Positions 23,800 to 46,312 of a stretch of DNA of 64,000 bases are shown in pieces (position 1 is the first letter of the stretch; every line of letters starts with the position of its first letter). Made by a program: the position numbers and the translations under genes. A model generated the notes under the pieces. That model had not been told where the DNA came from, ran no database searches, and was given only the letters and a program-made list of their open reading frames with translations. Origin of the DNA: Selaginella tamariscina (taxonomy: Eukaryota; Streptophyta; Lycopodiopsida; Selaginellales; Selaginellaceae); contig PUQB01000183.1 in assembly GCA_003024785.1 (NCBI GenBank), forward strand, positions 62,001-126,000. Direction: 5' to 3'.

Positions 23800-25440
23800 G
23801 TTGATTTAGGTTTTAGCAATTAACAATTCATCTTTGTTGTTACTTTCTAGGCCAGGCAAAAAAGGTTTTAGCTGCCTGGAAAATCATTCAACATATTCCA
23901 CTTCTTCTGTTGATGTTTCCGTGCTCAGTAGAATATTGAATGTTCTGTGCTCTTAAGATAACTTCCAATGTGATATCTAGTTCAAGATCGTCTTCAGACT
24001 TCGATATTAAACCAGATTCCTTTAAAGATGTCGCACTTCTCGGGAGGGAACTTTCTCAAATACTCATGTATGGTTATTGGGGTAGTCAGTTAAGACCTCT
24101 CTATCCACTTGTTTCATGTTCTTATCCTTTTCAACAGCAAACACACATGTATCCTGAAGTTAACACTCCTTCAAAAAGAACCCTTAGTGCAATAGTCAAA
24201 AACCTATGCATCACTGTGAGGACCCTTGATTAAGTTGACGATGATACGTGCAACCTGACTTGTAATTTGGATAATGTACATTGCCAAATACATTCCTCTT
24301 AATTATTAATGTATCGGATGGAGATTCAGGCCTGTTGAAGCAAAAATAGATGCCTGGCTAATCATTTAGAAATTTAAAAATGTTTGGCACATTCCTAACA
24401 ACCAAGTGAACAACTGTATCAATACACCTGGGATCATCATCATTCATGTAAAATTCAATTTAATAATGTCTGTTCTTTTTGGCGAAGAGGAAGGGAAAGG
24501 TATCGGTGACATGAACAAAAATCAAAAAATAAATACCTAAAGACAAAGGTATCAGGTAAGTGTGCAAGAATTAAATAATAAATACCTTCTCTGTACATGC
24601 TTGCACAACTAAGTCTCCACCAAATCTTCTAGGGCCTTAGGATTTTTTAACACATGCCGATCTATCACAAACATTTGAAATAGTTTTCTGCAGGTAGTGA
24701 TGTTACTCCATAAAGTATCTGAATCCGACAACAAACACTGTAAGGCTTGCCATAATTCGTACTGTCATTCTTTATCAAGTTCAACTCAGTTCTCCACTGT
24801 TAAAGGATTGCCATAAGAGAAGGCATTATGGCGATGTTCTTCTTTCTCGCATTGGCATGCAATAGATTCTTGCCCAGATCTTCTAATTGGTTTACCCATT
24901 AGACAAACATATCATCGTTTGTCACTTGCAATATTTGCTGACCTTCTCGTATGCTGGAGCTAAGGTCCAACCCAGTTTATAGCAGTGTATTTCCAACCAC
25001 TCTTTAAAGTGTCTGATTGTCTTTACCATTGCCTTTAGATGAAAAGGAGAGGTGGGGTTGCTGTTATGAAACTGTAGTCCATCAGCCACCAAATTAGTTA
25101 ACACGTCCCATCTCCTCCACTATGGTTTTGTTCAGAGGCTCAACCATGTGAACTTGGAGTGTTGTCTACATCCTTCGCAGGTTGGACAAACTTAGCCTTG
25201 GGCGTCTTACTAGGTTTTTTTAAGACTTTTTCGAAGGCTCCTCTTTACTTGCTTTAGTGTTCCTTTTGCGAATGATTCCATGATCCTCACCCATTTGTCG
25301 AAGACATTATCCTCGGGGCAAGAAATCAGCATCATATGAAAGATGTTTTCTTCATGCCCACTTGAGTAAAATCAACTGCTACAATTTCTTCGGCTCTTTA
25401 CATATGGAATAATTTAAAAGATTAATATACTGGCAAGATA
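23800..25440 (-). pseudogene. Gene family X, copy X2 (3' half)
   Basis: Matches the 36037-37650 part of X1 in opposite orientation. Readable pieces on the minus strand: 'VAVDFTQVGMKKTSF' (25400), 'FHLKAMVKTIRHFKEW' and 'LEIHCYKLGWTLAPAYEK' (25060-24950), 'STNHDKPYKCLLSDSDTLW' type (24760), 'LVEKLNCASMYREG' and 'IYYLILAHVTDTF' (24600-24500), 'VFDYCTKGSF' (24200), and 'VFAVEKDKN'-like (24130). The 5' half is missing; the break falls exactly at the X intron that carries a palindrome copy (25432-25449). Stops and shifts throughout. Confidence 0.65.
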
Positions 25441-25494
25441 AATGCCGCCAATAATTTTTATTACCCAGTATTTTGCACTTTGTTTTATGCAAGT

Positions 25495-26131
25495 TTGTAA
25501 TTAAAATGGGCATGGCTATAGTCCCATTTTTAATAATTAACAATTTTAGCTATTTAATTAGCATTTTCTAATATTAAAGAATATTCTTTAGAATATATGT
25601 TTGAAAATAGAATATTCTTTAGAATATTTTTTTGTATTCTACCTTTAATAAATTATAGCATTCATTGAACAAAAATTAATAACATTATAAAAGTAGAAGG
25701 TATTAAATTATATATATATTGCCTAATATAACAATTAAGGAAGAGCATAAGAGGTACATTATATAAATATTGATGTTGTTATTAAAATATTAATATTTAA
25801 ATATAACATTATTAATTAAAAATTTGTAGTAGTAATAATATATATATAAAATCCTATAATAATTAATCAATCTTCCATATCATTTTTTAAATTTATATAG
25901 TTAAGTAAACAATTTGGTACTATTATTAAAGAGTTTATAATAATTATGAATATTAAATATATGATATTTTATAATTTTGTAATTGCTTTAAGCTTCAGAA
26001 AACATACATTCCCTTGCAGTTTTGTTAATCGTGACTTTATCAACGCTTCTTGACATCCACCCATATCGAATGGATTTAACATTTAAAACATGCTGTTTTG
26101 ATTGGGAGACCATGTTTTCTCTAGGCATCCA
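25495..26131. repeat. AT-rich repeat shared with 55560-56200 (transposase tail)
   Basis: From 'aattaaaatgggcatg' onward this block matches 55568 and downstream in the same orientation, including 'agaatattctttagaatat', 'ttattaaaatattaatattt', 'tttggtactat' and 'gacatccacccatatcgaat'. It continues into the transposase 3' end. It probably contains the 3' non-coding end of the DUF7869-like element. No ORF of note inside. Confidence 0.65.
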
Positions 26132-26252
26132 TTATATCTTTCGCTCTCCTTCTCGTGTGCCTTTTTTGTGGTTTGAACCATGCAACCTTAACAATACTAT
26201 TTTTGTGATTACTTCAGGTGTGTCGATAATTTGACCCATCCAAATAGGCTGA

Positions 26253-26818
26253 TTATATGACGCATCTGGAGTAATGAGAACCATCATTAGTTTTTTGAAG
26301 ATCCTGGCAGCAATCAAAGTATGCTTTAGGTTTTTGGTTCCTTTGTCCAACAAAGTGTGGGGTTTGCACTTCCACATCACTACTGGCTTCTATGTCGTCT
26401 GTGCTCAGTGATGTCATTTCAATCTCCTCTCGCCACCTTGTTTTAGGCCAAAAGGGTGTTGCAATTCTGTACTTGTGATAGTAGGCCCTTCCAACTCTCG
26501 AACAACAGTCTCCCAATAGTCAACCACATGCTTATATAGTTCTGAGTAACCAGTTGCCTTATCAGAATTCTTTGGCATCGATTTTTGAACCCATGCCACA
26601 TATTTTTTGATGCCATCAATAATAACCTCTTGTTCCTTGAGCTGGGCACTCAATGGAATAGGGTCTGGTTGTCCTTCTGGGAGAAGTGGCTTTCCATTCT
26701 CTCCACTTTTGAAGAGCATTAACCCCTCTTTCGGTAACCACTCCTGCTCTGATGGCCGTAACTTGTACTGCATAATAGGTATACCATCTCGTATGGAGAA
26801 AAAGAATTGTAGCGGCAC
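26253..26818 (-). pseudogene. DUF7869-like transposase, C-terminal exon
   Basis: A 134-codon frame from about 26818 reads 'MQYKLRPSEQEWLPKEGLML', 'GQPDPIPLSAQLKEQ' and 'YSELYKHVVDYWETVVREL', then 'PFGLKQGGERRLK' and stop. A second frame continues with 'FWPKTRWREEIEMTSLSTDD' and 'FVGQRNQKPKAYFDCCQDL'. In relatives a region after the catalytic core has 'p.W.p......' repeats of this sort with W/P-rich segments. A partial copy sits at 56280-56500. Confidence 0.5.
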
Positions 26819-26939
26819 AAGGTGACCAACTAAAGAATCACTCCCCTCTTTTATATACCTTGAGAAATTTTTTGAAGTCTGGCACCTCAGTCACAAGCAA
26901 AGCACAACTTTTTTTTGGAGATGCAATTTTCAAAAAGAT

Positions 26940-27315
26940 TCATCATATGGTAAGGTAAGTGCACTTGTCCTTTTTGTAGAGTTGGAGACCTTTGCTGAAG
27001 AACGCATCAATATCTTCATGAGTGTGACCAACCATAAGAAAACTGAGCGTGATTGTTTCAAACACACCTTTGGCAACAAGCATTGACAAGTATGCTAGCA
27101 CATATCTAGAAAATAAAAGTAAGTATGAGTTGAGAAACCCTTAAGTAAAATGATTTACCTATTTTTGTTCTCGCTGCACAATTATCCATCTGTAAAAGCA
27201 AATGACGAGGAAGCTTATTTGATGTTGAGGACACATGTACACTATTTGAGCTAGATCCCTCCACTGAACCTGAACTCTCAACAGGGCCATCTGTTTTTGT
27301 GCAGGTTGCTGACAA
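26940..27315 (-). pseudogene. DUF7869-like transposase, second and third catalytic motifs
   Basis: The minus strand reads 'KLPRHLLLQMDNCAARTKIG' at about 27215-27150; the family form is 'L-x-x-Q-x-DNC-x-x-ENKN', so the Asp is kept. After a spacer or intron (27150-27090), 27085-26960 reads 'VFETITLSFLMVGHTHEDID' and 'AFFSKGLQLYKKDKCTYL'. The GHTH-x-DID block is the most conserved signature of this transposase group and probably carries the last catalytic acid. Frames are interrupted. Confidence 0.65.
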
Positions 27316-27394
27316 TGCCTCTCATATTCCCAAGTAGCCTCAAGTGCAGACGTGTTCATGAGAGCATTATGTAAAGGTTGAAGGTGTTGTTTCT

Positions 27395-28810
27395 TCACTT
27401 TGAGATCACCGATAGGACTTGTCTGTGAGTGGGCTTCAATTTGAAACACATGGCCAACGACCCAATAGTGAAATTGGAGTCGCTAGACCAATGTGGAAGT
27501 GAAAAGTGTCCATATGATTCACAACCGTGTCCATGTGTTAGCACACCTGTCAATGAAATCGGAAGTTTCATGACATTTCCAAGGCACTTTGGTGTTGCAA
27601 CGAGCTTTGGAATGCTGGTCTTTGAATGATCCATCTTGTCATGGATCAAGCACAGGTACTCTGATGGGTGTGACACAGAAAGCATGCGGTGTGCATAGTA
27701 CTGAGACCGGCAAGTTTGTTGCGCAATCATGTGGGCCTCCATCTTCTTTTGAATGGCAGTGATCTCCACCAAGGTTTTTGCACAAGCCTCTGCAGCCTTC
27801 AATGATGTACAAGTGTCACACTTGGAAAAGCTAGAGTGTTTTGCAATCTCCACATCCTTAAAATGAGTATTCCATATGTTGTTGAAGGTACCAGTGCAGA
27901 TTGCTTGCAGCCCCATCAAGCTGAGGCACTTGTTCACATGTTCACACAGCTTCAATTGAGTGTAGATCGAAGGCAAAACCTTGAGATTTTCCCTGACCCC
28001 TGCATTTGTGGTTCGGCATTTGTGAGGCATCCTGTCTGCATTTGCTTCCACAAAAGCCTTGAGTATCTCTATGGCTGCCATAATGTGAGAGCGGGTTTTG
28101 ACCAAGCCAGTGTTCCCATGTACTGAGGTTCGCGCTCCATCTAACCACTCATCCCTCGACGGTGAGAACGTGGTCTTTGGGATCCCATATATACTGTACC
28201 AAGCTTTGAAGCAGATGGCCACCTTATTAAATACCATGGATGTACTCTGATAACCTGTGTCCGAAGCCATTCCATCAATACACCCAGTTAGTGCAGCATA
28301 TACAAACTCATGCCTTTGCTTTTGGGTGAGCGTACGAAAGACATGTCTACATTGGGTAATTTCATTCCGGTCTGCCATCTGACAACACTTCTTCTTGCAG
28401 CAGTCAATCGTGGAAATGCTCGTAACACTTTCGGAAGATGTAGGATCCATCTTCATCCTCTTGCTGAAACATGTAGGGGAAGATCTGCAACCCATGAATC
28501 GCCTTTTTCTTAATAGGACCAATGCAAGGAACCTCTTCAAATATGAGTTTTCTTCCGGGTTGTTATTATTGAAATCCAACCCAGAATATGTTGAACCATC
28601 TTGCCGTCTTAATTCAGATGTTCGCCACCTCACGAGGGATCCAGGATGCAAAGTGCCATTAGGTGAAACCTCTGTCACAACTACACCCACGAAGTCGGAC
28701 CCTAGTTTCTCTTCTGACACTGCTTCCATTGGATTTATAGCTGTGATGATGCCTCTCCCAACCTCAATCTCATGAAGAAAGAGAATCACCTCATCCATCA
28801 CAGCAGGCAA
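27395..28810 (-). CDS. DUF7869-like transposase, main exon
   Basis: A 471-codon frame. The first 80 residues ('VGRGIITAINPMEAVSEEKL', 'GSDFVGVVVTEVSPNG') look like a small beta-rich domain repeated from the exon upstream. Middle: 'LTQKQRHEFVYAALTGCIDG'. A Cys/His cluster 'HSSFSKCDTCTSLKAAEACA' is a zinc-binding segment that precedes the core in this family. Then 'SEYLCLIHDKMDHSKTSIPK' holds the first catalytic Asp (DxMDxSK), followed by 'ISLTGVLTHGHG' and 'SLPHWSSDSNFTIGSL'. The next exon (27315-26940) carries the other acids. The frame then runs out of homology near 27430. Role: DDE-type cut-and-paste transposition in the nucleus, inferred from motifs. Confidence 0.65.
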   Translation of the reverse strand: MPAVMDEVILFLHEIEVGRGIITAINPMEAVSEEKLGSDFVGVVVTEVSPNGTLHPGSLVRWRTSELRRQDGSTYSGLDFNNNNPEENSYLKRFLALVLLRKRRFMGCRSSPTCFSKRMKMDPTSSESVTSISTIDCCKKKCCQMADRNEITQCRHVFRTLTQKQRHEFVYAALTGCIDGMASDTGYQSTSMVFNKVAICFKAWYSIYGIPKTTFSPSRDEWLDGARTSVHGNTGLVKTRSHIMAAIEILKAFVEANADRMPHKCRTTNAGVRENLKVLPSIYTQLKLCEHVNKCLSLMGLQAICTGTFNNIWNTHFKDVEIAKHSSFSKCDTCTSLKAAEACAKTLVEITAIQKKMEAHMIAQQTCRSQYYAHRMLSVSHPSEYLCLIHDKMDHSKTSIPKLVATPKCLGNVMKLPISLTGVLTHGHGCESYGHFSLPHWSSDSNFTIGSLAMCFKLKPTHRQVLSVISK

Positions 28811-29094
28811 GCCATCATCTGGAAAACTCGTGCTACTGTTTGTTTGTGACTCTGTTCTGTGTCAGCCTTGACTTCATCCAAATTCCACAATACAGGAGAA
28901 CCCTCCTCAAATTCCATTCCAGGAACCTCAACATGCTTGAAAATGGTGTTCACCCATACGTACACACAAGATCCTTGGGCAATATTGTGACATGATGCAT
29001 TATCATCTCGAACTTCCACAGTTCCAGTGCCAACTATCTCGTTGTTCCGAAGAAGACATACTTTATCTCCAGTATTATACATATTGTCCTGCAC
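28798..29094 (-). CDS. DUF7869-like transposase, N-terminal exon
   Basis: 98 codons: 'MYNTGDKVCLLRNNEIVGTG', 'TVEVRDDNASCHNIAQGSCV', 'YVWVNTIFKHVEVPG' and 'SPVLWNLDEVKA'. The pattern G-x-G-x-V ... V-x-V is similar to a domain found in plant transposase-associated proteins (I think DUF8039-like), and a second copy starts the next exon. It overlaps the next frame by 13 bases, so a shift near 28800 or a short intron joins them. The ATG at 29082 (MYNTG) is the likely start; it lies about 140 bp from palindrome array I. Confidence 0.5.
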   Translation of the reverse strand: MQDNMYNTGDKVCLLRNNEIVGTGTVEVRDDNASCHNIAQGSCVYVWVNTIFKHVEVPGMEFEEGSPVLWNLDEVKADTEQSHKQTVARVFQMMACLL

Positions 29095-29230
29095 ATAAAT
29101 AATTGTGTTATTTATGATATCTGTTTATGCAATATTTTAAGAAATCATAACTGCAGTTGCTTAATAATATGCATGTGCAATAATACATAATTAATATAAA
29201 AATAATATCTCATGCTTTATTAATATAACT

Positions 29231-30066
29231 GATGGGCGGGATTAATCCGCCGCAGACTCTACCCCTTCAGAGTGAGTCGGCGGGATTAATCCCGCCGTCG
29301 ACTCTACCCCATCGGAGAGAGTCGGCGGGATTAATCCCGCCGCCGACTCTACCCCGTCGAGAGAGGCGCGGGATTAATCCCGCCGCCGACTCTCCCTCGG
29401 AGAGAGTCGGCGGGATTAATCCCCGCCGACTCCCTGTCGGAGAGAGCGGCGGGATTAATCCCGCCGCGGGCTCCCTCCGACGAGGAAGTAGCGGGATTAA
29501 TCCCGCGGGCTCCCTCCGACTAGGAAGTACCGCGGGATTAATCCCGCCGCCGGATCTTCCTCGTCTGTGAGAGTCGGCGGGATTAATCCCGCCGCAAATT
29601 CCTCCGACGAGGAAGAGGGGGCGGGATTAATCCCGCCCACAACACTGACGACGGAGAATAGGCGGCGGGATTAATCCCGCCCACAACTCTGACGACGGGA
29701 ATAAGCGGCGGGATTAATCCCGCCCACAACTCTCTCCGAAACTATGATTTCAAAGAGATTCGGGATGAATTCTGCCCACAAATATTTAAAACAGGGAAGT
29801 AGTGGCGAGATTAATCCCGCCACCCCTTTCTGCCTCCTAAAATGGTTGGCGAGATTAATCCCGCCGACAACTTTTCTAATAAATTCAAGTAAATCATTAT
29901 CAGTTGAGAGAGTTATCCGGGATTAATCTCGCCGCTCTTTTTAAAGAGGCGGAGAAGCATTGCCCGAACTAATTCTGCCATAGCTATGAAAGAGATGGTG
30001 GCGGGATTAATCCCGCCACCTCTTCAAAGAGGCAAAAAAAATGGCCGGATTAATCCCGCCGCCCGG
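29231..30066. repeat. Palindrome array I (GGCGGGATTAATCCCGCC), ~19 units
   Basis: The 18-bp perfect palindrome GGCGGGATTAATCCCGCC or a near variant occurs about 19 times with centres near 29242, 29286, 29330, 29373, 29417, 29455, 29498, 29540, 29584, 29628, 29672, 29714, 29766 (decayed), 29811, 29856, 29922, 29972 (decayed), 30008 and 30051. Spacing is about 40-45 bp for the first twelve. In several units the arms extend (gagtcggc...gccgactc), and spacers are themselves partly palindromic (ctccctcggagagag; ctccctccgacgaggaag). Order decays toward 30066. Long translated ORFs here (GGINP or GLIPP repeats on either strand) are artefacts of the palindrome. Confidence 0.95.
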
Positions 30067-31380
30067 CTAACCGAGAATATTAAGTTAAAAGTATATTTAA
30101 ACGGGATAAATCCCTAACAAATATTGTAATCCTAATGCATTCCTAAATCCCTAAATTCTAAAATTTAAGAGAGAATGTAAGAGAGTGAATCTTTATAAAT
30201 ATATCTAAATTTGTTTATAATACTTACTTGTAAACAGCACTGAAGGCGCCGTGCTTTCCTATAAACAATAGCGCACCCAATTTAATGTCGCTCCTGAGCT
30301 GATCACTAAGAAGAAAAAAGAAAATCTGAAGAGTGAAAATGAAGAAACCCTTGCCGGAGAAAGAACCAGATCTGAATTTGAGTGGGAAATTAAATGTTTT
30401 TCAAATTTACATGTCAGACTGATAATACTTATGTCAGAAATTAAATTTTTGAAATAACAGAAAAGAAAATTTAAATGAGTTGAAACAAATAACCGACAGT
30501 CTGACATATATACTCTCCAATTCCAATGAGTGTTTTAAAATTGCATTTAATGTCATTCAAGTGCTTCAAGCTGTTTAATATTACGAAATTTTTGTAATTT
30601 CTACATTCTTAATATTCAAGTATATTATTAAGTTTATATATATATTATATACACTAATACAATAAATAAATTGATATATTATTATGTATCATTTAAAATA
30701 TATTCATAGTCTGTTTATTATTATTATTTTCTTAATTACTCGAGTAATTAATTACATTTCCTACTATTAATTGGATATTCTTTGTTATTTTCTTAATATT
30801 GAAAGAATATTCCAATATTAAACATAATTATCATAATTGAATTAGTCTTATTCTTAATTATCTCAGTAATTATTCTACATTTGTATATATTAATGGGATT
30901 TTCTCAATTAATTTGTTATTATTTCAAGAATATTCTAGTGTTAAACCTTATTATCAATATTAAATTAATATATATTATTAAAACATATATGGCTATATAT
31001 TAGATAAAATCTATATTTTATGTATATTTAAATATGTTCATAGTGTGTATATTAATATTATTTTCTTAATTATTCGATGTTTGTTTTGCACATATTATAT
31101 ATAAACACAATCATAAATTTATATATACATGTGCACACGCATTAGAAGCACTACAGAGACACATATGCACACACATGCACATTGCCCTAAACCAAACTTT
31201 AGAAATTATATGTTGCTTCTTTATTGAAAAATATCATGTTCAACGCATGTTGATCTATATGTACTTGTGTGTGTATGTAACACATTGAATTTACACATGT
31301 AATATATATGTATGTCTATGTGTATACACGTGTGTATGTATATATGTGTACTAATATAATATATGCAATGTGTACAATTT
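30067..31380. other. AT-rich spacer between the palindrome arrays
   Basis: No gene seen. Strongly AT-rich, with 'gaatattc' units near 30805 and 30945 and imperfect internal similarity between 30600-30780 and 30960-31080 ('aattattcg', 'ttattattttcttaatta'). Runs into TG/TA microsatellites after about 31240. Confidence 0.5.
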
Positions 31381-31880
31381 TCATTTGTTAACACTCTATC
31401 TCTTCTCTCATACATACACAGTGTCACCATGCATAATCCCTTCTCTCATACATACCACACCATGCATGTCATGATCCATAAATGTAGCCTGTCCTTCTCT
31501 CATACATACACACCATGCATGATCCATAATATGTACTGATGTTACAATTTATGTAATATGTATAATGTATATCTGTGTATAATACTCACTCTCATACATA
31601 ATAACACCATGCATGATCCTTCCTAACCCTAAACCTTAAATCCTACATTGAATTTACACATGTAATATGTATGTATGTCTGTGTGTATACACGTGTGTAC
31701 TAATATATCCAATGTGTATGATTTAACACTTTCACTCTTCTCCATACATACACACCATGCATGATCCATGTAAATATGTACTGTCTCTCCTCTCAAACAT
31801 ACACACCATGCATGATCCATAATATGTATTGTCACTTTTCTCTCATACATACACACCATACATGATCCTGTACTCTGTCT
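31381..31880. repeat. Tandem 'ctcatacatacacaccatgcatgatcc' satellite carrying RY motifs
   Basis: Units with 'ctcatacataca', 'caccatgcatg' and 'atccata' recur. CATGCA(TG), the RY element bound by plant ABI3/VAL-type B3 domains, occurs at 31428, 31461, 31514, 31608, 31756 and 31807; a decayed unit lies at 31853. Spacing ranges from 33 to 148 bp. Surrounded by (TG)n/(TA)n. No coding potential. Confidence 0.7.
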
Positions 31881-32059
31881 CTCTAATATTAATATGTACT
31901 AATATGTATGTATGTCTTTGTGTATATACTATGTGTGTATATATGTATCGCTGCACGTGAAACTTTAACACTCTCATGGACACACACGTGTTAAACCCTT
32001 GCATGATATTTATTCTTGGGGTGTATTTGATACACCCACGCACACACACACACGCTGAT

Positions 32060-33057
32060 AATATAATGAAAGAATATTCGTTTAGGGCGAACTATAGTTT
32101 TTCTTTTAGGGTTTAAGTATATTCTTAGAAGGAATATTCGATTAGGGTTAATTATTTCTATTCCTTTTAGGGTTTAAGTATATTCCTAGGGTTTGTAAGG
32201 CGGCGGCGGCATGGAAATTCTCCTTCTCTCTTCTCACACATGTGAGATCTCTCTCTCCACGCACACTCTGAGTTTATTTATTATTTTTATCCACATATAT
32301 ATTTATATGTGTGTATATCTTAATAATATAATTTAGATCTCTATCTCTCGCACACACACGCACACTCGTATACATATACACACACAGAATATATATATAT
32401 AATATATATATATTATTATATATTATATATATATATATATCCTTCTCTCTCTCTCTTCTCTATAGATCTCTATCTCTCGCACACACACGCACACTCGTAT
32501 ACATATACACACATAGAATATATATATATATATATATATATCTCCTTTTCTCTCTCTCTTCTCTATAGATCTCTATCTCTCGCACACATGCACACTCGTA
32601 TACATATACACACACAGATATATATATACATATACACACACACACAGATATATATATATATTCTATTTATTTATCTATTATATGTGTGTGTGTATCTGTA
32701 TAATTTTATTGATTTGTTAATTGTATCTCTCGCACACACACGCACACTCCTGTATATATATATGTGTGTGTGTGTTTGTTTATCTGTATGATTTTATTTG
32801 TTTCACACACGCATACACACGATATATACACATATATATATATATATACCTATGTATACATATATATTATGTGTACCAGTATCTGTATAATTTTATTTAT
32901 TTATCTATCTCTCGCACACACACGCGTATATACATATACATATACATATATGTGTGTGTGTGTGTATCTGTATAATTTTATCTGATTGACTATCTCTGGC
33001 ACACACACCACTCTCCTAGACACACATATACATATATATATGTGTGTGTGTGTGTGT
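32060..33057. repeat. Compound microsatellite with ~100-130-bp superunits
   Basis: 32075-32200 has two copies of 'gaatattcg-tttaggg' and 'ttttagggtttaagtatattc' (telo-box core). From 32330 units of 'gatctctatctctcgcacac', (CA)n, 'cgtatacatatacacacaca', (TA)n and 'cttctctctctcttctcta' recur near 32335, 32466 and 32568, then units of 'gtgtatctgtataattttat' with (CA)n/(TG)n to 33056. The last (TG)n abuts the first palindrome of array II. Confidence 0.85.
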
Positions 33058-34252
33058 AGCGGCGGGATTAATCCCGCCGCTCATTCGTTACCCTCATGAG
33101 CGGCGGGATTAATCCCGCCGACTAAGGCCCGAGTGAAGGGATTGGGCGCGGGATTAATCCCGCCGCGTACGCATGCCCTGCGCGGAATCGGGCAGGATTT
33201 ATCCCGCACCATTGGCCTGCCTGAAGGGCCTAGGTGGCGGGATTAATCCCGTCGGATTCCGCACATGGCATTGGCGTCCGGCGGGATTAATCCCGCCGAC
33301 TAAGGCCCGAGTGAAGGGCCTGAGCGGCGGGATTAATCCAGCCGCGTACGCATGCCCTGCGGGAATTGGGCGGATTATCCCGCCGCCATTGGCCTGCCTG
33401 AAGGGCCTAGGTGGCGGGATTAATCCCGCTGGATTCTGCACATGGCATTGGCGTCCGGCGGGATTAATCCCGCCGCCCTGTGCGGAATCCGACGGGATTA
33501 ATCCCGCTGCCCCGGCCCTTCACTCGGGCCCTAGCGGCGGGATTAATCCCGCCTGATTCGCACAGGGCATTGGCGTCCAGCAGGATTAATCCCGCCCGAT
33601 TCCGTGCAGGGCATTGGGTCCAACAGGATTAATCCGCCCGATTCCGCGCAGGGCATTGGCGTCCGGGATTAATCCCGCCGCCTAGGCCCGAGTGAAGGGC
33701 CGGGGCGGGATTAATCCCTCCCTGCGTGGAATCGGGCGGGATTAATCCCCGCCAAAGGCCTGCCTGAAGGCCTAGGCGGCGGGATTAATCCCGCCCGATT
33801 TCGAGCAGGGAATTGGCGTCCGGCGGGATTAATCCCGCCGCATAGGGACCGAGTGAAGGCCCTGGGCGGCGGGATTAATCCCGCCGAGCCTTCAATGCCT
33901 GTTGGAGGAATGAATCCCGCCACCCTTCCTTTTTTTCTCCATTGGTGAGTCGGACCAATCCCAAACGTTTCTGTCTGAGACGTAGAAGGTTTACAACATA
34001 CCAATGGAGAGAACTGGGAAGGGGGGAAATTCATTTAACCATCCCTTACATGGTGGGCGAGATTAATCCCGCCTCCTTTCTGGAGTCACTGAAGGGGTGT
34101 GAAATAAATCCTGCCCAGTTCTCTCTGAGACCGAGAAGGGTGGCAAGATTAATTCCGCACTCCCGTTCAAGGCCTCCAGAAAGGTGGCGAGATTAATCCC
34201 GCCCACTCTTTCAGGAGGCATTGAAGGGGTGGCGAGATTAATCCCGCCGCAC
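33058..34252. repeat. Palindrome array II, ~26 units with higher-order structure
   Basis: The same 18-bp palindrome recurs about 26 times to 34245, mostly 40-45 bp apart; later units are decayed (ggcgagattaatcccgcc). Four spacer types follow in fixed order: A 'aggcccgagtgaagggcc', B 'tacgcatgccctgcgcggaa', C 'ccattggcctgcctgaaggg', D 'ttccgcacatggcattggcg'. Units A-B-C-D make a 178-bp higher-order unit at 33121-33298 that repeats at 33299-33476. After that the order is scrambled and spacer A appears inverted ('ggcccttcactcgggcc', about 33517). Immediately 5' of X1. Confidence 0.95.
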
Positions 34253-34361
34253 CTTCCATGTGAATATATATGTGTATTAGTATATATAAGTTGCATATCT
34301 CATTTTATTTACTTTTATCATCTTATCATAATATTTCGAGTAAAAGCTAGGAACTATGTAA

Positions 34362-34448
34362 AACTGTCCAGAGCTCACATTTGTGGTGGTTCTAAAACGA
34401 AATGTTATCTTTCTTTTGCACTAGCACAAATGTGAGCTTTGGACAGTT
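34362..34448. repeat. 24-bp inverted repeat (stem-loop) upstream of X1
   Basis: Left arm 34362-34385 (aactgtccagagctcacatt...) and right arm 34425-34448 (...atgtgagctttggacagtt) are complementary with one mismatch, separated by 39 bp. Upstream of X copy 3 the right-arm sequence is kept ('gtgtccaaagctcattttta', about 41080), so it belongs to the X 5' region. Could be a terminal inverted repeat remnant, a small hairpin element or a transcribed stem-loop. Confidence 0.7.
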
Positions 34449-34589
34449 AATTCCGTCTACTTCTCTCTGTGTATTATTTTTGTATATTCGGGTTTATACA
34501 AGTGTGTGTGCGTTTTTATATGATTTGTATTCATAGTGTATTATTTTGCAGAAGGACGATTTAATAAACAAGGAGATCGAGTCATTAGT

Positions 34590-37500
34590 ATGGAGTCGTC
34601 GTCAAATTCTGGGTAAGAATTAAAATAAAATCTGTTATACTCGGATATGCTTGAACTAATCATTTTTGTATTCAGATGTGGAATTGAGGTGACATTAAAG
34701 ACGAGAGCAGGAGAAGAGATGGGCAGGGGGATTCTGGAATCAACTTGGCCATATTTCAAACTAAACGGGAAGCGCATTGGACAACCATGGTTGCTGTCAA
34801 ACTAACCTCTGTCACATCGCATGGACAAGCAAAACAATGGAAAGTGGGTGTGCTAGTCAAGCATCCGAAAGCATGCTGCGAACCCAGATTGAACGATGCT
34901 CGACACATATGCCTTGTTCCATCCAATGTCACGTTCTCGGATCCAGAGGTCGCCAGTTACAACATTAATTTCGGGTGGTTTTGTCGACTTGTGGATAATG
35001 ACGTTCACGTGTTCACTAATGATGTTGACCTTGGAGTTCTTCTTCAACTCAACGAAAGCCCATCTATGGAGGGGATCCATCTGGATGTCTACTTCGAAGA
35101 TCTTCAGACTCATCGAGTAGGTGTATTGTCAGGAGATATTGCTTCACAATACAGAAAATCAGCAAGTGGAGCAATCGTCCCTCTTCACATTGAAGAAGAA
35201 CACAGCGACATCATAAGGAGATTGAGGGTGGCTTGGTCTCAGGTTCTTTACAGATCACGTTCAATTTGCTTAGCAAATTTCGGGAGCTGGAAGAGTGTGC
35301 CGAGAACTAGAACAGCATCAATCGGGGATCACACATGTTGATTCGGATCGTAGAAGAAAATCATTAGTCGTTTTGTCAGCTGCACCTGTGGTCCATGCTG
35401 CAATAAGCCACAAGGAAATGATGTTGGATGATAGATTTACCGTGTAGGGTTAATATTGCAGCGTCAACCCAAACTTCAATTACAGGCCACTCAATCAGGA
35501 ACGTGTAGCTGAGCTCATGGAGAAGATGAAGGACGACAATTCTTACACCGTTCCACATAATGCTGTTTTGTGCGCATACTACGAGAGAACAAAGGCGCTG
35601 ACAAAGTGTGGATCACAACACCGGAACATGAGGAAGGTTCAGACGGAGAATAGAAAATCAGTTAAGTACTACATCATTAGTGGCCAGCACACAATAACGG
35701 CAGCCCAACGACTTCTCGACGAACACAACAAAGGAACGATGGCAACAAAACTTTCCGAGCATACCCGTGAGAAGCTGACGAAAAGATCGGCGTTTTTAGC
35801 GAAGCCGAATCTCACAATCGAGCAGTACCATAAGTTATCGGCGGAATGGGACGCTGCGACACCAACCACTACAACAGCAAAATATGGGAGAAGTTCAAAC
35901 ACACGCGAGCCGTGTGGGAATCTCTTCAGCGACCACAAAGAGCTACCGCAGGGAATACACAATCTGCGGACTACCGGGTAAGCAAATTGTTTGGGCGGGA
36001 TTTATCTCGCCGGTATATTAATCTGTTTTTCCTCAGAGAGTTGAAGAAATTGTAGCAGTTGATTTTGCCCAGGTGGGCGGGAAGGAAACATCCTTTTTGA
36101 TGATGTTGATTTCTTGTCCCGAGGATAGGATCTTTGCAAATGGTTGGGGATTATGGAATCCTTTGCAAAAGGAACACTGAAGAAGAAGCAGACAAGTGAA
36201 GTGGAGCCCTCAGAAAGTCTGCAAAGAAACCCAGTAAGACGCCGAAGGCTAAGTCTGTTCAAATCATAAGGATGTAGACAACGATTTCAAGCTCACATGG
36301 TTGAAGCCTTTAAATGGAACAACGATGGAGGAGATGGAAGTCTTGGCTGATTTGGTGATTGATGGCAAATTACAATTAACAACAGCAGCCCACCTCTCCT
36401 TTTCATCTCAAGGCAATGGAGTTGAAGACGGTCAGGCACTTCAAGGAGTGGTTGGGAATACACTGCCACAAACTGGGTTGGATTTCGGCTTCAACATACG
36501 AAGAGGTCAGCAAATATTTGCATGTGACAAACGATGATATGCTTGTCGAATGGGTGAATCAATCGGAAGATCTGGGCAAGAATCTATTGCACGCCAACGC
36601 CAAAAAGGAGAACATTGGATGACGCCTTCTCTTATGGCAGTCCTTCAGCAGCGGAGAACCGTTGAACCTTATAAAGGAGGATGCTACGAATCACGACAAG
36701 CCCTACAGATGTTTGTTGTTGGATTCGGAGACTTTATGGGGTACATCACTGCTTGTAGGAAACCGTTTCAATTGTTCGTGATGGATCGGCGGGTGTCAAA
36801 AAATCTTCGACAGACAGGACACTAGAGGATTTGGTGGAGAAACTTAGCCGTGCAAGCATGTACAAGAAGGTATTTATTATTGAATTCATACTTGCACTCT
36901 TGACTGATATCTACTTTTTCAGGTATTTATTTCTTGATTCTTGCTCATGTCACCGATACCTTTGCCTTCTTCCTTTGCCAAGAGGAATAAACATCGTTGG
37001 ACAGGATTTTATATGAATGATGCTGATCCAAGTGCATTGATTCGGTTGTTCACTTGGTTGTTAGGAATGCGCCAAACATTTCAAACTTCCAAATGACTGG
37101 CCAGGCATCTGTTTGCACTCCAACGGCCCTGAACCTCCATCCGATACACCGATAGGAGAGTGACGTATTCGGCAATGTACGTTATCCAAACATACAAGTC
37201 AAGCGGCACGGAGCATCGTCAACTTGATCAGGGGTCCTCACAGTGATGCGTGGGTTTTTGACTACTGCACTAGGGGGTCCGTCTTGAAGGAGTGTTACCT
37301 TCGGCATACATGTGTTTGCCGTTGAAAAGGATAAGACCATGGTTGAGGACCTGAACAAGTGGATAGATAGGTTCTCAACTGAGTACCCCAACGAATCCAT
37401 AAAGGAGTATTTGAGAAAGTTCCCTCCAGATAAGTGCGATAGCTCTGAAGACGAATCTGGTTCAATGTCGGAGTCTGAGGAACGAACTTCAATCAGATAT

Positions 37501-37680
37501 TAGACCGGAAGTTATCTCGAGGAGTACAGAACATTCGCACACTCCATTACCCATGGAAACATCAATAGAAGATAGAAGATCTTGAACCATCTCACAAGCG
37601 GCTTAGACCTTCTTCGCCTCACTCAGAAGGTAATAGCGAAGAAGAATTGTTAATGAATTTTAGAGTGACGAATAGTTGTA
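34590..37680 (+). pseudogene. Gene family X, copy X1: ParB-like plus methyltransferase-like protein
   Basis: The most complete of five copies. The start 'MESSSNSG' at 34590 runs into an intron 34613-34675 (gtaaga...ttcag), then 'CGIEVTLKTRAGEEMGRGIL', and after a shift the unrecognised N-terminal domain (34760-35270, 'HGQAKQWKVGVLVKHP'...). At about 35460-35740 'NPNFNYRPLNQERVAELMEK', 'DNSYTVPHNAVLCAYY' and 'VKYYIISGQHTITAAQRLL' resemble a ParB/Srx fold (N-P-x-x-x-R-P start, then the G-x-H/R-x-x-A-A box). Intron 35978-36036 contains a palindrome copy. The 3' half includes 'HFKEWLGIHCHKLGW' and 'NHDKPYRCLLLDSETLW', and near 37245-37365 'HSDAWVFDYCTRGS', then 'TCVFAVEKDKTMVEDLNKW', which resembles methyltransferase motif I at the end of beta-class DNA MTases. 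The frame is broken in several places. Domain calls are by eye. Confidence 0.55.
35978..36036 (+). other. 59-bp X intron containing a palindrome copy
   Basis: Donor gtaagc, acceptor tttttcctcag. Positions 35994-36011 read GGCGGGATTTATCTCGCC, the array palindrome with two changes. The same place in X2 (25432-25449, ggcaagataaatgccgcc), X4 (57806-57823, the same sequence as X2) and X5 (59806-59823, ggcgagataaaacccgtc) has decayed copies, so the motif was in this intron before the copies split. Confidence 0.75.
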
Positions 37681-37932
37681 AATGAGTGTAACATAAGGCA
37701 TTTTTGTATATTTCGTTTATATTTGTACAGAAAATAAATTCTCAAGGATTAATGAAGCTTTTAGTTCAAACATGGGTCACACATTAACAAGGTAAATAAT
37801 ATACCTTGATAATTTTAAGGTCAGCTAATTATCATTTTGCAGATGTAATGAAACAATTGAGAACATGGATTTTCAGCATTGGCATGAGGTAAGAGAGGGG
37901 TTTGGCGACAATTTCTTGTGCCACATGTCAGA

Positions 37933-38910
37933 ATGACAGAGTTCATGCAGGAAATGGATAATAATGCAGCTCAAAACATCGTTACCATGGGGGCCACTTC
38001 AGTTTTTTCATCATCATTTTTATTGGCTTCAGTTCCGAAATCAATTTCTTCAGCGCATGCAATATCTGAATCTTGTAAGGATGATGTACAATTAAATGAT
38101 GAAGGGATAGGCAACGAGATAGTGGCAACGGATAAATGTGAAAGGGAGCAAACAAGTGATTTGCAAAGTATTCAAGAGGCAACGCTATCTCATGTTACTC
38201 ATGGCCATATTGTGTTGTTGGATGTCAATGGTGTTCTGCTTCATCGACAAAGGCCCGAGGATAGGAAAAAAGAAATCAAACAAGGAGATTTCATTCCTTG
38301 TCATGGTAAATTTCGATATGATATTATTTTTCGTCCAGGGTTGGATCGTCTCTTTCAAAAGCTTAAGGAGATGGGTGCGCTTGTGGGGATTTGGTCATGC
38401 ATGCAGATTCATAACTTAACACCGCTGTTGAATTTGCTTAAGAAACATTGTAGTGTTGCAGAAGAGGTGATTCGTAAAGATTGGATTTTTGACCAGCGAA
38501 TGTGTTATAAACCTCTCGAATTTCACAATATAAGAAAGGAAAGCAAGCCATACTTCTTCAAGAATGAAAGAATAATTGGGACTCATGGGGAGATCAGTCG
38601 CTTAAGGATAATGAAGAATGCACATATCTTAGTAGTAGACGACTCTCCTCAGAAGGCTATGCTCAACCAAAACATTGCTTGTATTCATCCAATCACTTTC
38701 GATCCATATTCTGATACCGATATCATGGATGAGCTAGTGAACTACTTGGATACGTGCCTCAGAAAGAAGAATCTCGAAAATTTTTGTGAGCAGTATCCAC
38801 CGTATCATACATTTCCTGAAGCTTTTCTTTCTCGTGATTTTGAATTTTATAAAATGAAGGATAGCAACCGGGCGCTTTATAATATTATTCTTAAGGAACG
38901 TCATTTTTAG
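37933..38910 (+). CDS. FCP1/NIF-type HAD phosphatase-like protein
   Basis: An intact single-exon frame; the first ATG is at 37933 (about 325 codons). Residues 1-95 are low-complexity. 'HGHIVLLDVNGVLLHRQRP' is HAD motif I in the D-x-N form seen in the plant FCP1-homology group related to fungal C1271.03c (canonical D-x-D; the first Asp is the nucleophile). 'FRPGLDRLFQKLKEMGALVG' and 'IWSCMQIHNLTPLLNLL' match the R-P-x-L and W-T/S strands, and 'NAHILVVDDSPQKAMLNQN' is the DD motif that binds Mg. The C-terminus 'LENFCEQYPPYH' is typical. Likely acts on a phosphoprotein in nucleus or cytosol. It follows X1 by 250 bp, so it may be host DNA or element cargo. No frame damage. Confidence 0.8.
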   Translation: MTEFMQEMDNNAAQNIVTMGATSVFSSSFLLASVPKSISSAHAISESCKDDVQLNDEGIGNEIVATDKCEREQTSDLQSIQEATLSHVTHGHIVLLDVNGVLLHRQRPEDRKKEIKQGDFIPCHGKFRYDIIFRPGLDRLFQKLKEMGALVGIWSCMQIHNLTPLLNLLKKHCSVAEEVIRKDWIFDQRMCYKPLEFHNIRKESKPYFFKNERIIGTHGEISRLRIMKNAHILVVDDSPQKAMLNQNIACIHPITFDPYSDTDIMDELVNYLDTCLRKKNLENFCEQYPPYHTFPEAFLSRDFEFYKMKDSNRALYNIILKERHF

Positions 38911-39335
38911 ATGAGCCTTTATGCAGACCTCTCTTATTACATCTTATGTATTAACAAGGATGGCAACTCCCAATTGCATTCGTGAGAGTGTTAGTGGTGG
39001 CAACAACATCAAGATATTGACCAAAATGATTTGATTAATCCGGAGAGTGATGATTTAGACAAAATGAGGAGATTTCTTGTATGATAGGAAGAAAGTATTT
39101 ATAAAAATTAACATGTTGATAAGAAAATGATTTCATTTGTAATTATGTTTGATAGTATTTCTTCATTATTGTAAACTATTTTTAGAATAATATGAATATT
39201 CTAAGATATTTTAGGAATATTCCTTACTAAGTAAGGTTATTGAAATTAATTAATTAATTAATTAATATTTAAGGCTTAATTACATATTAATTAAATGATT
39301 AATTAATAATTAAAACTTAAGTATTAAATTAGTCT
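38911..39335. other. Short AT-rich spacer
   Basis: No gene. (ATTA)n run at about 39247-39275 and 'gaatattc' units at 39190-39225. It ends where X copy 3 begins. Confidence 0.5.
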
Positions 39336-39339
39336 TTGT

Positions 39340-40700
39340 AGCCACCCAAGAGTTATTCCACATGGATCGCTTATGTTTGAACTTCTCTCATATTTTTCTA
39401 TTGTAGTATTTGGTGTCTGCAGTGTCCCACTTTGCAGATAGCTTATGGTATTGCTCGGTTATGAGATTCAACTTAGCTAAAAAAGTCGACCTTTTGTCAG
39501 CTTCTCATAGTTATGCTTAAAAAGTTTCATTGCCATCATTCCCTTATTGTGTTCATTAAGGAGTCATTGGGCTGTCGTTATCATGTGTTGGTCGCTAATG
39601 ATGTAGTACTTTATTGGTTTACTTTGTCTGGATCTTTGCGATTTGTTATGATGTTGTCACCCACACTATCTCAGTTCCTTTCTTTTTTCATTAGTAAGGC
39701 ACAAAATGGCATTAATGTGGAATGGTGTACGAATTGTCATCCTTCATCTTTTCCATGAGCTAAACTACATGTTCATGGTTGAGTGGCCTATAGTTGAAGT
39801 TAGGGTTAATGCTGCAATACTTAATCTTACACTCATAAATCCTGTCATGCAACATCATTTACTTGTGGCTTATCACAGATTGGGATGTCATTGGTGCAGT
39901 TGACAAAATGACATAAGACTTTCTTTTATAGTCAGAATCAATATGTGTGAGCCCCGATTGCAGTTGTTCTAGTGTTCTTGACACATTCTTCCAGCCTCTG
40001 AAGATTCCAGGCAAATTGAACATGATCAATAAGGAATTTGAGACCGAGCTACCCTCTCAATCTCCTTAATAATGTCGTTGTGTTCTTCTTTCAATCAGTT
40101 AGGACAATTGCTTCGTTCATGAATCTTCTGTATTGTGAAGAAATATCTACTGTGAATACACTTATTGAATGGTATTCAGATCCTCAAAGAAGACAATCCG
40201 CTCCACAGATGGGCTTTCATTTAATTGAAGAAGAATTCCATGCTCAACATCATTAGTGAAAATGTGAACGTCGTAATAAACAAGCCAACGCAACCACCTA
40301 AGGTTCGAGTCGTACCTGGCCTCCTCCAGATCTGAATGTTACATTAGATGAAATGAGATATATATTTTGAGCATCGTTTAATTTCGGTTTGTAGCCTACC
40401 CTCGAGTGCTTAATTATTGAATCTACTTTTCATTGTTGTGTTTGTCCACGTGATGTGACAGAGATTAATTTGACAGCAACCATGGTTGATCCAATGCACT
40501 TGATGTTTATTTTAAAATATGGCCAAGTCGATTCCAGAATCCCCTTGCCCATCTCATCTCCTCCTTTTGTCTTTAATGTCACCTCAATACCACTTGTGAA
40601 TATAAAAATCATAAGTTCTCGATGTCCGAGTATATTAAATTTTATTTTAATTCTTATCTAGAATCTGAAAATGACTCCATACTAATGGCTGAATCATTGT
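39340..40700 (-). pseudogene. Gene family X, copy X3 (5' half)
   Basis: Minus-strand match to 34590-35990 of X1. Readable: 'GIEVTLKTKGGDEMGKGILE' and 'STWPYFKINIKCIGSTMVAV' at 40600-40440 in one frame, showing that X1 carries a shift here, and the ParB-like 'NPNFNYRPLNHEHVV' near 39800 ending 'LMEKMKDDNS'. The 3' half is missing; the break is close to the fixed intron position. The leader 40740-41130 also matches X1 upstream sequence, including the stem-loop arm and one palindrome (40853-40870, ggcgggattaatcttgcc). Confidence 0.65.
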
Positions 40701-40739
40701 GTTTGATCAAGCGCCTTTCTGTATAGTTTACAGTATGAA

Positions 40740-41130
40740 TACAATTTTATAAAAATGCACACACACTTATATAACCCGAATATACAAATACACTATTAAA
40801 ACTTTACAGGGTCTATAAATATTTTTCTTTAAAATGGTCAGACTAATTAGATGGCGGGATTAATCTTGCCAGGTCCGAAAAGAAGAGGAATTATAATATA
40901 CAAATAATCATGTACATATAAGTACAGGTGTGTGAGAGAGAGAAAAAACTTATTGTACTAATACACTAGTACATTCAGATACAGGTGTGTGAGAGAGAGA
41001 AAAAACTTATATGTACTAATACACTAGTACATTCAGATACACTCTTTGTCATCTCAGAGAAAAGTGGGGCAGGATTAAGTGTCCAAAGCTCATTTTTATA
41101 ATAGTGCAAAAAAACGCACATCATTCGGTT
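40740..41130 (-). promoter_or_regulatory. X3 upstream region with one palindrome and a 60-bp duplication
   Basis: Homologous to 34440-34540 ('cccgaatatacaaa' versus 'tttgtatattcggg'). Carries the palindrome variant at 40853-40870. A tandem duplication 'aggtgtgtgagagagagaaa' plus 'ttactaatacactagtacattcagataca' lies at about 40925-40980 and 40983-41041. No array here: a single palindrome where X1 has about 26. Confidence 0.55.
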
Positions 41131-43962: not shown

Positions 43963-44457
43963 TGGTCCACTATATATACCTGCATAACCCTAAGACGTGG
44001 TTCACTGTAGGTTGTTCACTTGAACCGCCTTGGAGTGGAGTGCATAGATTCGAGCTGTGGGAGGTCTCCATGGGGGCGCCGCCATGGCGCCACACTGGCA
44101 CCATGAGCTTTGTGAGGTCTCGTGCAAGGGTTCTAGCTGGGGCTGATGTGTCTTGGATGGAGCAGTAGCAGGTGCATTGGTAGGAGCTGGGGTGGTGATG
44201 CATACAGTAGACAGCAACATTTAGGTGTAGAAGTAGTGGGAGGTAGGATCTGGGCAGGTTGGACCTGTGCACAGGGCGTAGAGCAGGGCAAGAAGTGAAA
44301 TGGATATGGGTATGGGATTTTGAGGCTGAAAGCGGAGCGCGAGGATTGGAATTGCAAGAGGGCATGATGGATTTCAAGCGATTTGATGGGGATGGAGTAG
44401 AATCGAAGGGCTCAAGGTGTGCAGGGTAAGCCAGAAATTAGGGTTCACACGTAAGGA

Positions 44458-44585
44458 TTAGGGCAGAGGAGAGCAAAGCAGAGTAGAGCAGAGTAGGGCA
44501 AAGCATAGCAGAGTAGGGTAGAACAGAACAGGAGCAAGGTTGGAGGTAGAGCAGAGTAGATAGAACAGAGCAAGAGCAGGGTCGG
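44458..44585 (+). repeat. Purine-rich minisatellite in LINE leader
   Basis: Units of about 10-12 bp ('agagcagagtag', 'agcaaagc', 'gaacagagca') recur about a dozen times. It lies in the putative 5' untranslated region of the LINE, where tandem repeats often act as internal promoter units; that role is inference. Confidence 0.65.
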
Positions 44586-44659
44586 AGGAACTTGAGGATC
44601 ATGGTGGAGACTAGGCGTATTCGGCAGATGAGAGAGGGACTATCGAACCAGTGGAGGAG

Positions 44660-46312
44660 ATGGGCGGCGGAGATGAGGACTCGGCTGTGACGGGGCAGGG
44701 GTGTGTGAGAAATCAGGATTCGGCTCATCAGTCGGGGACGGATAGTAGTGGTCGTGCACTTTCGAGTTCAGATGGTGCATACAGTTCAAGGAAGAGTGAG
44801 GAAAGTTCGGACAGTGAGCGGGCAGCGAGCGAGGACGGGGGTGAAGGATGGATGATCCTGCATTCTGATGGTGCAGCGAAGGAGAACCCCAAGGGAGTGG
44901 CAGGTGCTGGGACAGTACTATCGATGCTGAATGGGAAGGTTGTTCGCGAAATGCTACAGCCACTTCTGCGTGCAACCAATAACGAGGCAGAGTATTGGGG
45001 ACTCACAATTGGAATGTGTGTCGCAAAGGAAGCTAGAGCTCTATCGGTGCGGGCTTTCTGCGATTCGGACCTGATGGCCAAGCAGGTTTGTGAGCAGGTG
45101 GGGGTGAAGAAGCAGTCTCTCCAAGTATTGCACAAGCGTGTAATGATTCTGGCGAAACAGTTTGAACACTTTGAGATGGTTCATGTACCCCGGAAGGAGA
45201 ATGCGAGAGCGGATGCTCTCTCTAACCAGGCCGTTGCTTTGGCAACAGCTGCCAAGAATGGAAGTGTGGAACAACCACTGGTGGATGAGGATGTGGTGGT
45301 GTGGGAAACACTTCCCAAAGTACCTGGAGAACTGGAGGAGTGGATTTGTGCGTTGCGCTTCGAGGATCCCTCTTCAACGTTTCTGAGAATGGCGCAGGAG
45401 GAGGTGCAAACCTTAACTCCAATAAAGGTGGTGCTAGTTGCAGTGGGACCCCAGTGTATCCTCATGGAACGGTTGGAAGACGGACAATGGGTTCTTTCCC
45501 GCCTTGCTTGTGGAGAGGAGGAAACTCCAGCAGTGGCGCTGCAACATATGGCCGAAGAGAGGTTTGGCTGGACCGAGGGCAGCTTCTCTATCCAAGAAAC
45601 TGAGTCGGGTGTATGTGAAGTCCGATGGATCGGTAAGAAACCCCTGCGGCTCCCAACTGCGTATGTGTGGAGCTTGTCGGATGAGGTTGATGACGCGCGG
45701 AGAGCACATAACATTGCGAACTGTCTACGAAAACAGGAAGTGGAGAACCGAGCATGGGCTGAGCAGTGCAAAGTGCCATCCCCGCAGAGGGGGAATCATA
45801 ATGCTATCATACCTTGGCAACTGCCTCCGATGCAGATGAGTTCACCACCACGGTCCCCGATCATGGCCGATCGTGCAGGGCCAAGTTTGGTAGCTCCAAC
45901 TCCGGCGGGAGCTAGTGCAAAGGAGACAATCCCTCCAAGATCGGTGAAGATGGGACCTACAAATGCCTGGGCGAATAATGGCGGTGAAAAGCTAAAGGCA
46001 GATGTGGGCATATCCTGGGAGAGGGTGATCCAAGTGCCACCGGGAGTGCGCTTTGAGTACTTGAAGGAGGTTGAAAACGTTGATGGAGAGCTGGAGCTGT
46101 GTTTTGCCCTGTCTGACGAGGAGGAAGAATTGATGAAGAATGAACTCCGGATGGAGGCTCAAGGGAACCGCTTCGTGGTGCTGTTCATGGGCCGTTACCC
46201 ACCAACAGGAGAAACTCGTGACTGGATGAATGCGGCGCTAGGAGATCCAGGGCAGCAACACTCAGGACCCGTATTCGCAACCTTGGTCGAGGATGTTTTG
46301 AAGCTATGTTGA
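44660..46312 (+). CDS. LINE ORF1: RNase H, Nudix-like segment and gag domain
   Basis: About 550 codons. Residues ~55-195 are a complete RNase H: 'LHSDGAAKENPKGVAGAGTV' (Asp), 'LLRATNNEAEYWGLTIGM' (Glu), 'FCDSDLMAKQVC' (Asp) and 'RKENARADALSNQAVALA' (Asp). Residues ~255-340 resemble a Nudix fold, 'VLVAVGPQCILMERLEDGQW' followed by a Nudix-box-like 'GEEETPAVALQHMAEERFGW', in which R-E of the usual RE-x-x-EE is replaced by Q-H, so hydrolysis is doubtful. A Pro-rich linker leads to a DUF4283-like gag part 'NRFVVLFMGRYPPTGETRDW'. The start is the first ATG with this frame open. In known plant L1 elements RNase H, when present, sits at the end of ORF2; here it starts ORF1. Confidence 0.75.
   Translation: MGGGDEDSAVTGQGCVRNQDSAHQSGTDSSGRALSSSDGAYSSRKSEESSDSERAASEDGGEGWMILHSDGAAKENPKGVAGAGTVLSMLNGKVVREMLQPLLRATNNEAEYWGLTIGMCVAKEARALSVRAFCDSDLMAKQVCEQVGVKKQSLQVLHKRVMILAKQFEHFEMVHVPRKENARADALSNQAVALATAAKNGSVEQPLVDEDVVVWETLPKVPGELEEWICALRFEDPSSTFLRMAQEEVQTLTPIKVVLVAVGPQCILMERLEDGQWVLSRLACGEEETPAVALQHMAEERFGWTEGSFSIQETESGVCEVRWIGKKPLRLPTAYVWSLSDEVDDARRAHNIANCLRKQEVENRAWAEQCKVPSPQRGNHNAIIPWQLPPMQMSSPPRSPIMADRAGPSLVAPTPAGASAKETIPPRSVKMGPTNAWANNGGEKLKADVGISWERVIQVPPGVRFEYLKEVENVDGELELCFALSDEEEELMKNELRMEAQGNRFVVLFMGRYPPTGETRDWMNAALGDPGQQHSGPVFATLVEDVLKLC

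Follow-up and report, generated by a model that had tools for sequence, protein, structure and literature searches.

Two arrays of one 18-bp perfect palindrome, GGCGGGATTAATCCCGCC, lie in front of two divergently oriented genes of a ~14-kb inverted-repeat transposon in the Selaginella tamariscina stretch analyzed here (64 kb, positions 62001–126000 of contig C486 in the 300.7-Mb genome, hereafter the window). With moderate confidence, the arrays are interpreted as promoter-proximal site clusters at which a dimeric protein with sequence-specific DNA binding would control the divergent gene sets of this cut-and-paste, putatively DDE-type, element. In the proposed mechanism, a dimeric protein would bind the dense 18-bp sites at both promoters of the gene pair, the high site density would recruit it cooperatively, and the recruited protein would maintain activity of the promoters of its element or prevent their silencing, in the manner of VANC proteins for VANDAL elements. 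The binder would more likely be encoded by the element than by the host, and the protein of gene B is the likelier candidate because it is an accessory gene and one of the arrays abuts it.

Two arrays of an 18-bp palindrome

A site is defined as a match to GGCGGGATTAATCCCGCC with three mismatches or fewer unless stated. Across the window there are 41 such matches compared to 0.01 expected from shuffles, and a chance origin of the arrays was rejected on this basis. Array 1 (29235–30060) contains 17 sites, eight of them exact, and is located ~150 bp upstream of gene A; array 2 (33061–34248) contains 22 sites, eight again exact, and is located ~340 bp upstream of gene B. Neither array is assigned a strand, and together they account for 16 exact palindromes among their 17 + 22 sites. 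Two single sites, at 35994 and 40853, fall outside the arrays.

A first-pass annotation made from the sequence alone had described two arrays of one 18-bp palindrome, and the description is borne out. Its counts of ~19 and ~26 copies are reduced to 17 and 22, or to 17 and 23 when the limit is raised to four mismatches; the excess would represent copies with indels or more mismatches. The spacing that it gave as mostly 40–45 bp was measured as a modal 44–45 bp from 336 sites pooled from the window and ten stretches of a second contig, C1. The GC-rich character of the arrays in AT-rich surroundings was also recovered, with 49% and 60% GC in the two 1-kb bins holding most of the arrays versus 26–31% in the three bins of the AT-rich, microsatellite-rich middle (30061–33060) that separates them. 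The spacers, which had been considered partly palindromic, exceed shuffles in average self-complementarity (mean minimum free energy of −6.1 versus −3.9 kcal/mol for 25 window spacers, calculated with RNA parameters).

The arrays belong to a transposon family

Eighteen stretches were fetched from contigs C1 and C486, yielding ten array-bearing places on C1. The C1 stretches were picked because they hold the 18-mer and represent one contig only, so that arrays outside elements may occur elsewhere. From an all-against-all blastn comparison, the fetched stretches form a single repeat family in which nine of the ten C1 copies are ~92–98% identical to the window copy outside the middle, and L022, the remaining copy, represents a diverged sister type. 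The window copy was delimited by blastn to the C1 copies and by a terminal motif to 25487–39333, without an assigned strand. Its left tip (ATGCAAG...) begins at 25487 and the last ~70 bp of the right tip are missing; as a result, it shows no target duplication of its own. From left to right, a terminal repeat is followed by gene A, which reads leftward in the window, and by array 1; beyond a middle of ~3 kb of AT-rich microsatellite sequence lie array 2 and gene B, which reads rightward, and then an open reading frame (ORF) for a NIF phosphatase and a second terminal repeat.

The association between arrays and element is close. The ten C1 stretches contain 17 clusters of at least three sites. 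Of these, 16 fall within element copies, and the remaining one (L023:249–1485) adjoins a tip and weakly matching microsatellite sequence like that of the middle. All seven copies for which both halves were fetched have the two arrays, with 25–39 sites per copy. The exact 18-mer is very common, with 27,128 occurrences in the genome and none for a reversed control, and the first-pass annotation had named a genome-wide satellite unlinked to these genes as the refuting outcome; the location of the 17 clusters, as sampled on the one contig, led to a free or ordinary satellite being rejected.

The tips of the element mostly start with ATGCA(A/C/T)GTTGTAACTAAA(A/G)TGGGCATG. A 21-base terminal core occurs 1,482 + 1,444 = 2,926 times in the genome and its control not at all. 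Among the 100 places listed, 23 pairs of neighboring tips converge within 25 kb of each other; 20 of these are 11–16.5 kb apart, and 21 combine one A-form with one G-form end. If most of the 2,926 tips pair up, a rough estimate of the family is ~1,400 elements occupying ~20 Mb. Identical 4-bp flanks were observed at six of eleven end pairs, namely L031/L032 (ATGT), L045/L046 (ATTA), L047/L048 (GTAG), L051/L052 (ATTA), L053/L054 (AAGA) and h1804 (ATAA). A seventh pair, a0 (ATAT), fits a 4-bp duplication if one inserted tip base is allowed, and the flanks of the other four (L038/L039, L049/L050, L055/L056 and e794) do not match. From its convergent terminal repeats and 4-bp target duplications, the element is a terminal inverted repeat DNA transposon of the cut-and-paste kind. 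The duplication length agrees with that of the Sola1 superfamily.

The position of the arrays relative to the genes is constant. Ten copies were examined, with the start motif of each gene missing or uncovered in two of them. In all eight copies where the gene A motif was found, the first site of array 1 lies 175–177 bp from it; in all eight where the gene B motif was found, the last site of array 2 lies 326–333 bp from it. The flanks of f899 and g918 are shared, and these two copies may represent a single locus that was duplicated. Single arrays vary in span from 0.6 to 1.6 kb while both distances stay fixed. Between array 2 and the start of gene B, an imperfect inverted repeat with arms of ~25 bp was noted by eye in the window (34330–34450).

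Measured from the tips, the arrays begin at ~3.7 kb and 5 kb, a central position in the element. A miniature derivative of 245 bp (L036:1283–1527; C1:1443135–1443379) consists of the two tips only and is flanked by a perfect TTAA target duplication. Since this derivative has a 4-bp target duplication and lacks an array, transposition probably does not require the arrays in cis. The first-pass annotation had placed the arrays in transposon subterminal regions; its link to a transposon stands, and the subterminal placement and the transposition-site reading that accompanies it were rejected from the central position and the array-free derivative, which was seen once.

Conservation of the palindrome

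Within the 336 pooled sites, each of the 18 positions carries 1.1–1.95 bits of information, and positions outside the palindrome do not exceed 0.48; since the sites were selected by likeness to the 18-mer, the inside level is partly built in and the low spacer information is the informative part. Spacers between exact palindromes have a median identity of 49–74% in six copies compared to 50–56% for shuffles, with identity lower than the shuffle in one copy, 4 points higher in another, and 7–18 points higher in the other four.

The sister-type copy L022 provides a longer-term comparison. Its gene B is 76–77% identical to that of the window over 1.5 kb, and at 77% identity an exact site would survive at a rate of 0.77^18, or ~0.9% per site. 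The L022 array nonetheless presents 18 sites at five mismatches or fewer, of which four are exact and five have one mismatch. When the palindromes were masked, the L022 array could not be aligned with the window spacers (one match, E = 0.56), and its matches to slices of two other copies fell outside their arrays, apart from a few of 13–21 bp at E ≥ 0.16.

Among recent copies, most pairs drop to ~74–87% identity across the arrays and middle, and the window and copy d314 are 97% identical there. In the pair e794 and j2071, palindromes changed less (4 of 495 positions) than spacers (25 of 521). From the geometry, the spacer drift, the L022 sites, the 245-bp derivative and the pairwise rates taken together, we infer that lineages that move have been under long-term selection for the 18-mer and not for the repeat unit. 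Recent spread or selection had been suggested in the first-pass annotation; recent spread holds for the elements, given the high identity of nine of the ten C1 copies, and selection fits the long-term comparison with a mixed outcome among recent copies.

Variants of the site were also considered. The most common change among one-mismatch sites is G>A at arm position 5 (34 of 89, in copies that are related by descent), which may represent a second accepted form of the site. Sites with two mismatches are symmetric in four of 45 cases in nine copies. The symmetric variant GGCCGGATTAATCCGGCC recurs at L022:6329–6346, L022:7119–7136, L023:249–266 and L023:913–930; this paired change of both arms is what a dimer site or hairpin-templated correction would be expected to produce.

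The site character of the arrays, as proposed in the first-pass annotation, is thus supported by an 18-bp dyad that is kept beyond its spacers, by fixed gene distances, and by exact sites in L022; the binding itself is what we infer.

Genes of the element

Gene A (approximately 25600–29085, minus strand) is transposase-like and belongs to DUF7869 (PF25273). It is broken in the window copy, with a start codon placed by eye at ~29082. The profile match is below the curated cut-off in the window copy (E = 8.5e-5) and stronger in copy L014 (E = 1e-26 and 1.2e-13). For gene A, 52 homologues were found and the fold of one, P0003, was computed; P0003 had no match in IMG/VR.

Gene B (approximately 34589–37700, plus strand) is also broken in the window copy, where it has several frame changes; the start of exon 1 (34589) and one short intron were placed by eye. 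Two motif-like stretches occur in its translation. The first, IISGQHTITAAQ (35673–35708, plus strand), resembles a ParB box, a likeness that no profile confirmed. The second, WVFDYCTRGSVLKECYLRHTC (37251–37316, plus strand), was seen by eye and resembles methyltransferase motif I. A DPPY-type methyltransferase motif was not seen by eye in gene B, and the matches for the gene B pieces included no Pfam methyltransferase. A 176-residue piece of the accessory protein gave one match in the PDB at E = 0.58, and for a 632-residue piece the best matches in NCBIfam and PHROGs were at E = 0.14 and 0.15, respectively. A ParB/methyltransferase-like accessory protein is perhaps the binder, as a lead at the level of motifs. 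A plant transposon with its own epigenetic addressing, in which such a protein, of a type reported for giant transposons of algae, would recognize the 18-bp palindromes, load densely on both arrays at the divergent promoters, and mark them or shield them from silencing, is offered tentatively as a rather unlikely extension.

Near the gene B end of the element, an ORF at 37888–38907 (plus strand) encodes an NLI-interacting-factor-like (NIF) phosphatase (PF03031, E = 3.8e-12).

Weighing the interpretation

Several results weigh against site clusters for an element-encoded dimeric binder. The four of six copies whose spacers are 7–18 points more alike than shuffles show that some unit turnover takes place. 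L022 may be a mosaic, as 227 bp of its gene B are 88% identical to the window copy and the end of its gene A is 84–89% identical. Two close pairs reveal no difference between palindromes and spacers, with 0 of 215 versus 1 of 205 changes for the window and d314, and 9 of 303 versus 6 of 269 for the window and a0. Pooled over 77 ordered copy pairs, which omit 11 pairs with too few spacer columns and the f899/g918 pair, substitution rates came to 3.2% for palindromes and 16.0% for spacers, with 2.8% in the remaining sequence; since rearranged arrays align a unit to the wrong unit and thereby favor palindromes, the first two figures are inflated in their contrast and were not relied upon. CpG decay gave no clear sign of hypomethylated arrays, bearing in mind that the array alignments are partly misregistered: the values are 4.0% for CG versus 3.7% for non-CG in the arrays and 3.05% versus 1.79% in the rest of the element, and observed/expected CpG ratios are 0.50–0.85 in spacers and 0.54–0.71 in the rest of the element. 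The 245-bp derivative is 85–87% related to the family and was seen once, in one place.

The remaining points concern the binder. Pieces of gene B matched no significant family in Pfam, NCBIfam or PHROGs. The ParB N-terminal domain (PF02195) was found neither in the genome, in a search whose control was positive in 10 of 14 genomes, nor among the matches of the gene B pieces. The structure model of the ParB-like region was useless, with a predicted local distance difference test score (pLDDT) of 43. A composite accessory-protein sequence of 869 residues was compared with 5.8 billion proteins in one search limited in length and in the number of candidates, and none of the 7,997 candidates scored reached E ≤ 0.001. 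Pieces of the accessory protein had no match in phage records.

The alternative that survives best, although unlikely, is that the element gathered the sites of a host regulator, and that the arrays couple it to S phase or titrate E2F. The E2F consensus is TTSSCGSS. Each arm of the palindrome carries GGCGGGA/TCCCGCC, which is close to an E2F half-site; however, ATCCCGCC is one base off the consensus, at the T-tract, and an 18-bp two-armed dyad is not known as the usual E2F site. There is precedent in passages of PMC12595863, where miniature inverted-repeat transposable elements (MITEs) and Helitrons are described as having amplified E2F sites in Brassicaceae.

Somewhat less likely is an ordinary minisatellite inside the transposon, in which repeat turnover by itself would preserve the palindrome. 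This would account for the array length and unit number that differ between copies, for the lack of excess palindrome conservation in some closely related copies, and for spacers that are somewhat more alike than shuffles in several of them. Turnover of whole 44-bp units would nevertheless homogenize the spacers, which between exact 18-mers are only 49–74% alike, and it leaves aside both the 18-mer kept in L022 among unalignable spacers and the fixed distances to both genes.

A structural role in DNA or RNA is improbable. Chains of hairpins or cruciforms might shape chromatin, seed small RNAs, or serve as a replication or recombination signal, and perfect dyads, partly self-complementary spacers and the recurrence of the symmetric double-change variant in sister-type arrays are all in keeping with this. 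A hairpin requires complementarity and not a fixed sequence, yet the letters themselves are conserved and symmetric pairs are rare among the two-mismatch sites (4 of 45).

Least probable of all are transposase-binding sites needed in cis for synapsis and excision, like CACTA subterminal repeats, for which the presence of arrays in all seven copies with both halves available and a dyad suited to a dimeric binder are outweighed by the central position of the arrays and by the array-free derivative with its perfect TTAA duplication at one place.

Comparison with known systems

The subterminal repeats of CACTA (En/Spm) elements are many short protein-binding sites that are located at the ends and serve transposition. 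The window element likewise has many short sites in one transposon; in contrast, its arrays are central. Bacterial parS sites are palindromic, few in number, and of other sequence. The likeness to ParB/parS consists of palindromic sites and a possible ParB-box-like motif in the neighboring gene B, and ParB homology is not supported by profile.

VANDALs are Mutator-like elements (MULEs), and their element-encoded VANC proteins counteract silencing by binding a motif and removing DNA methylation. The present element differs from them in its DUF7869 transposase-like gene, and the analysis identified no protein resembling VANC. In PMC5735166 and PMC10398659, Arabidopsis VANDAL/VANC elements appear as multi-gene DNA transposons in which repeat number differs between copies, and this is also the case here. 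The 18-mer arrays show a further VANC/VANDAL-type trait, in that a short motif is tandemly repeated in non-coding DNA of the element. The VANC21 motif is a 9-bp YAGTATTAY; the motif here is an 18-bp perfect palindrome with a ~44-bp period in two central arrays.

A giant DNA transposon of Ectocarpus, Sola1-1_Ec32, encodes a transposase and, on the opposite strand, a ParB-like/DNA-methyltransferase gene (passages of PMC12477816). The two elements are alike in that the accessory gene is encoded on the strand opposite to the transposase gene, and the gene B motifs recall ParB and methyltransferase domains. The comparison is one of layout, and the words "palindrom" and "subterminal" are absent from the main text of PMC12477816. 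It has been proposed that accessory proteins of this kind bind the element that encodes them and modify it, with no target site named in the relevant passages of that paper.

The literature search found no paper on DUF7869, the Ectocarpus paper alone for ParB with algal transposons and, as judged mostly from listings, no description of such palindrome arrays. In IMG/VR the 18-mer occurs on one contig at one site, which by our own estimate is about the chance level for a collection of that size. The element is not assigned to VANC systems, nor, given the negative ParB profile search, to ParB-type elements.

Surroundings of the element

The window copy was inserted into an older sister element that is ~78% identical. 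Its left part (23819–25483, minus strand) and right part (39333–40788, minus strand) join up in the coordinates of copy a0 (6550/6568), and the single site at 40853, with two mismatches, adjoins the right part. A second sister element (55555–61134, ~79% identical) is rearranged and without an array, its gene A end being joined to two overlapping gene B parts. It ends beside a CLASP-like host gene with a TOG/HEAT-domain exon (61621–61986), which points to a host that is probably a land plant.

A GC-rich region at 44000–52000 with RVT_3, RVT_1 and zf-RVT domains on the plus strand is probably a non-LTR (long terminal repeat) retrotransposon. A tandem array at 9006–9769 (112-bp unit, 6.8 copies) adjoins Tf2-1/integrase-type domains at 10377–11057. 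Rfam and tRNA scans of the window found nothing.

Significance

The element family offers a concrete candidate target, a single 18-bp palindrome with 25–39 sites in each of seven copies and at a fixed distance to both gene starts. If a transposon-encoded protein binds the 18-mer, the element would constitute a second, independently evolved VANC-like system of self-recognition that is directly testable. If a host factor binds it instead, the 27,128 perfect sites would burden the host with decoy binding and rewiring on a very large scale.

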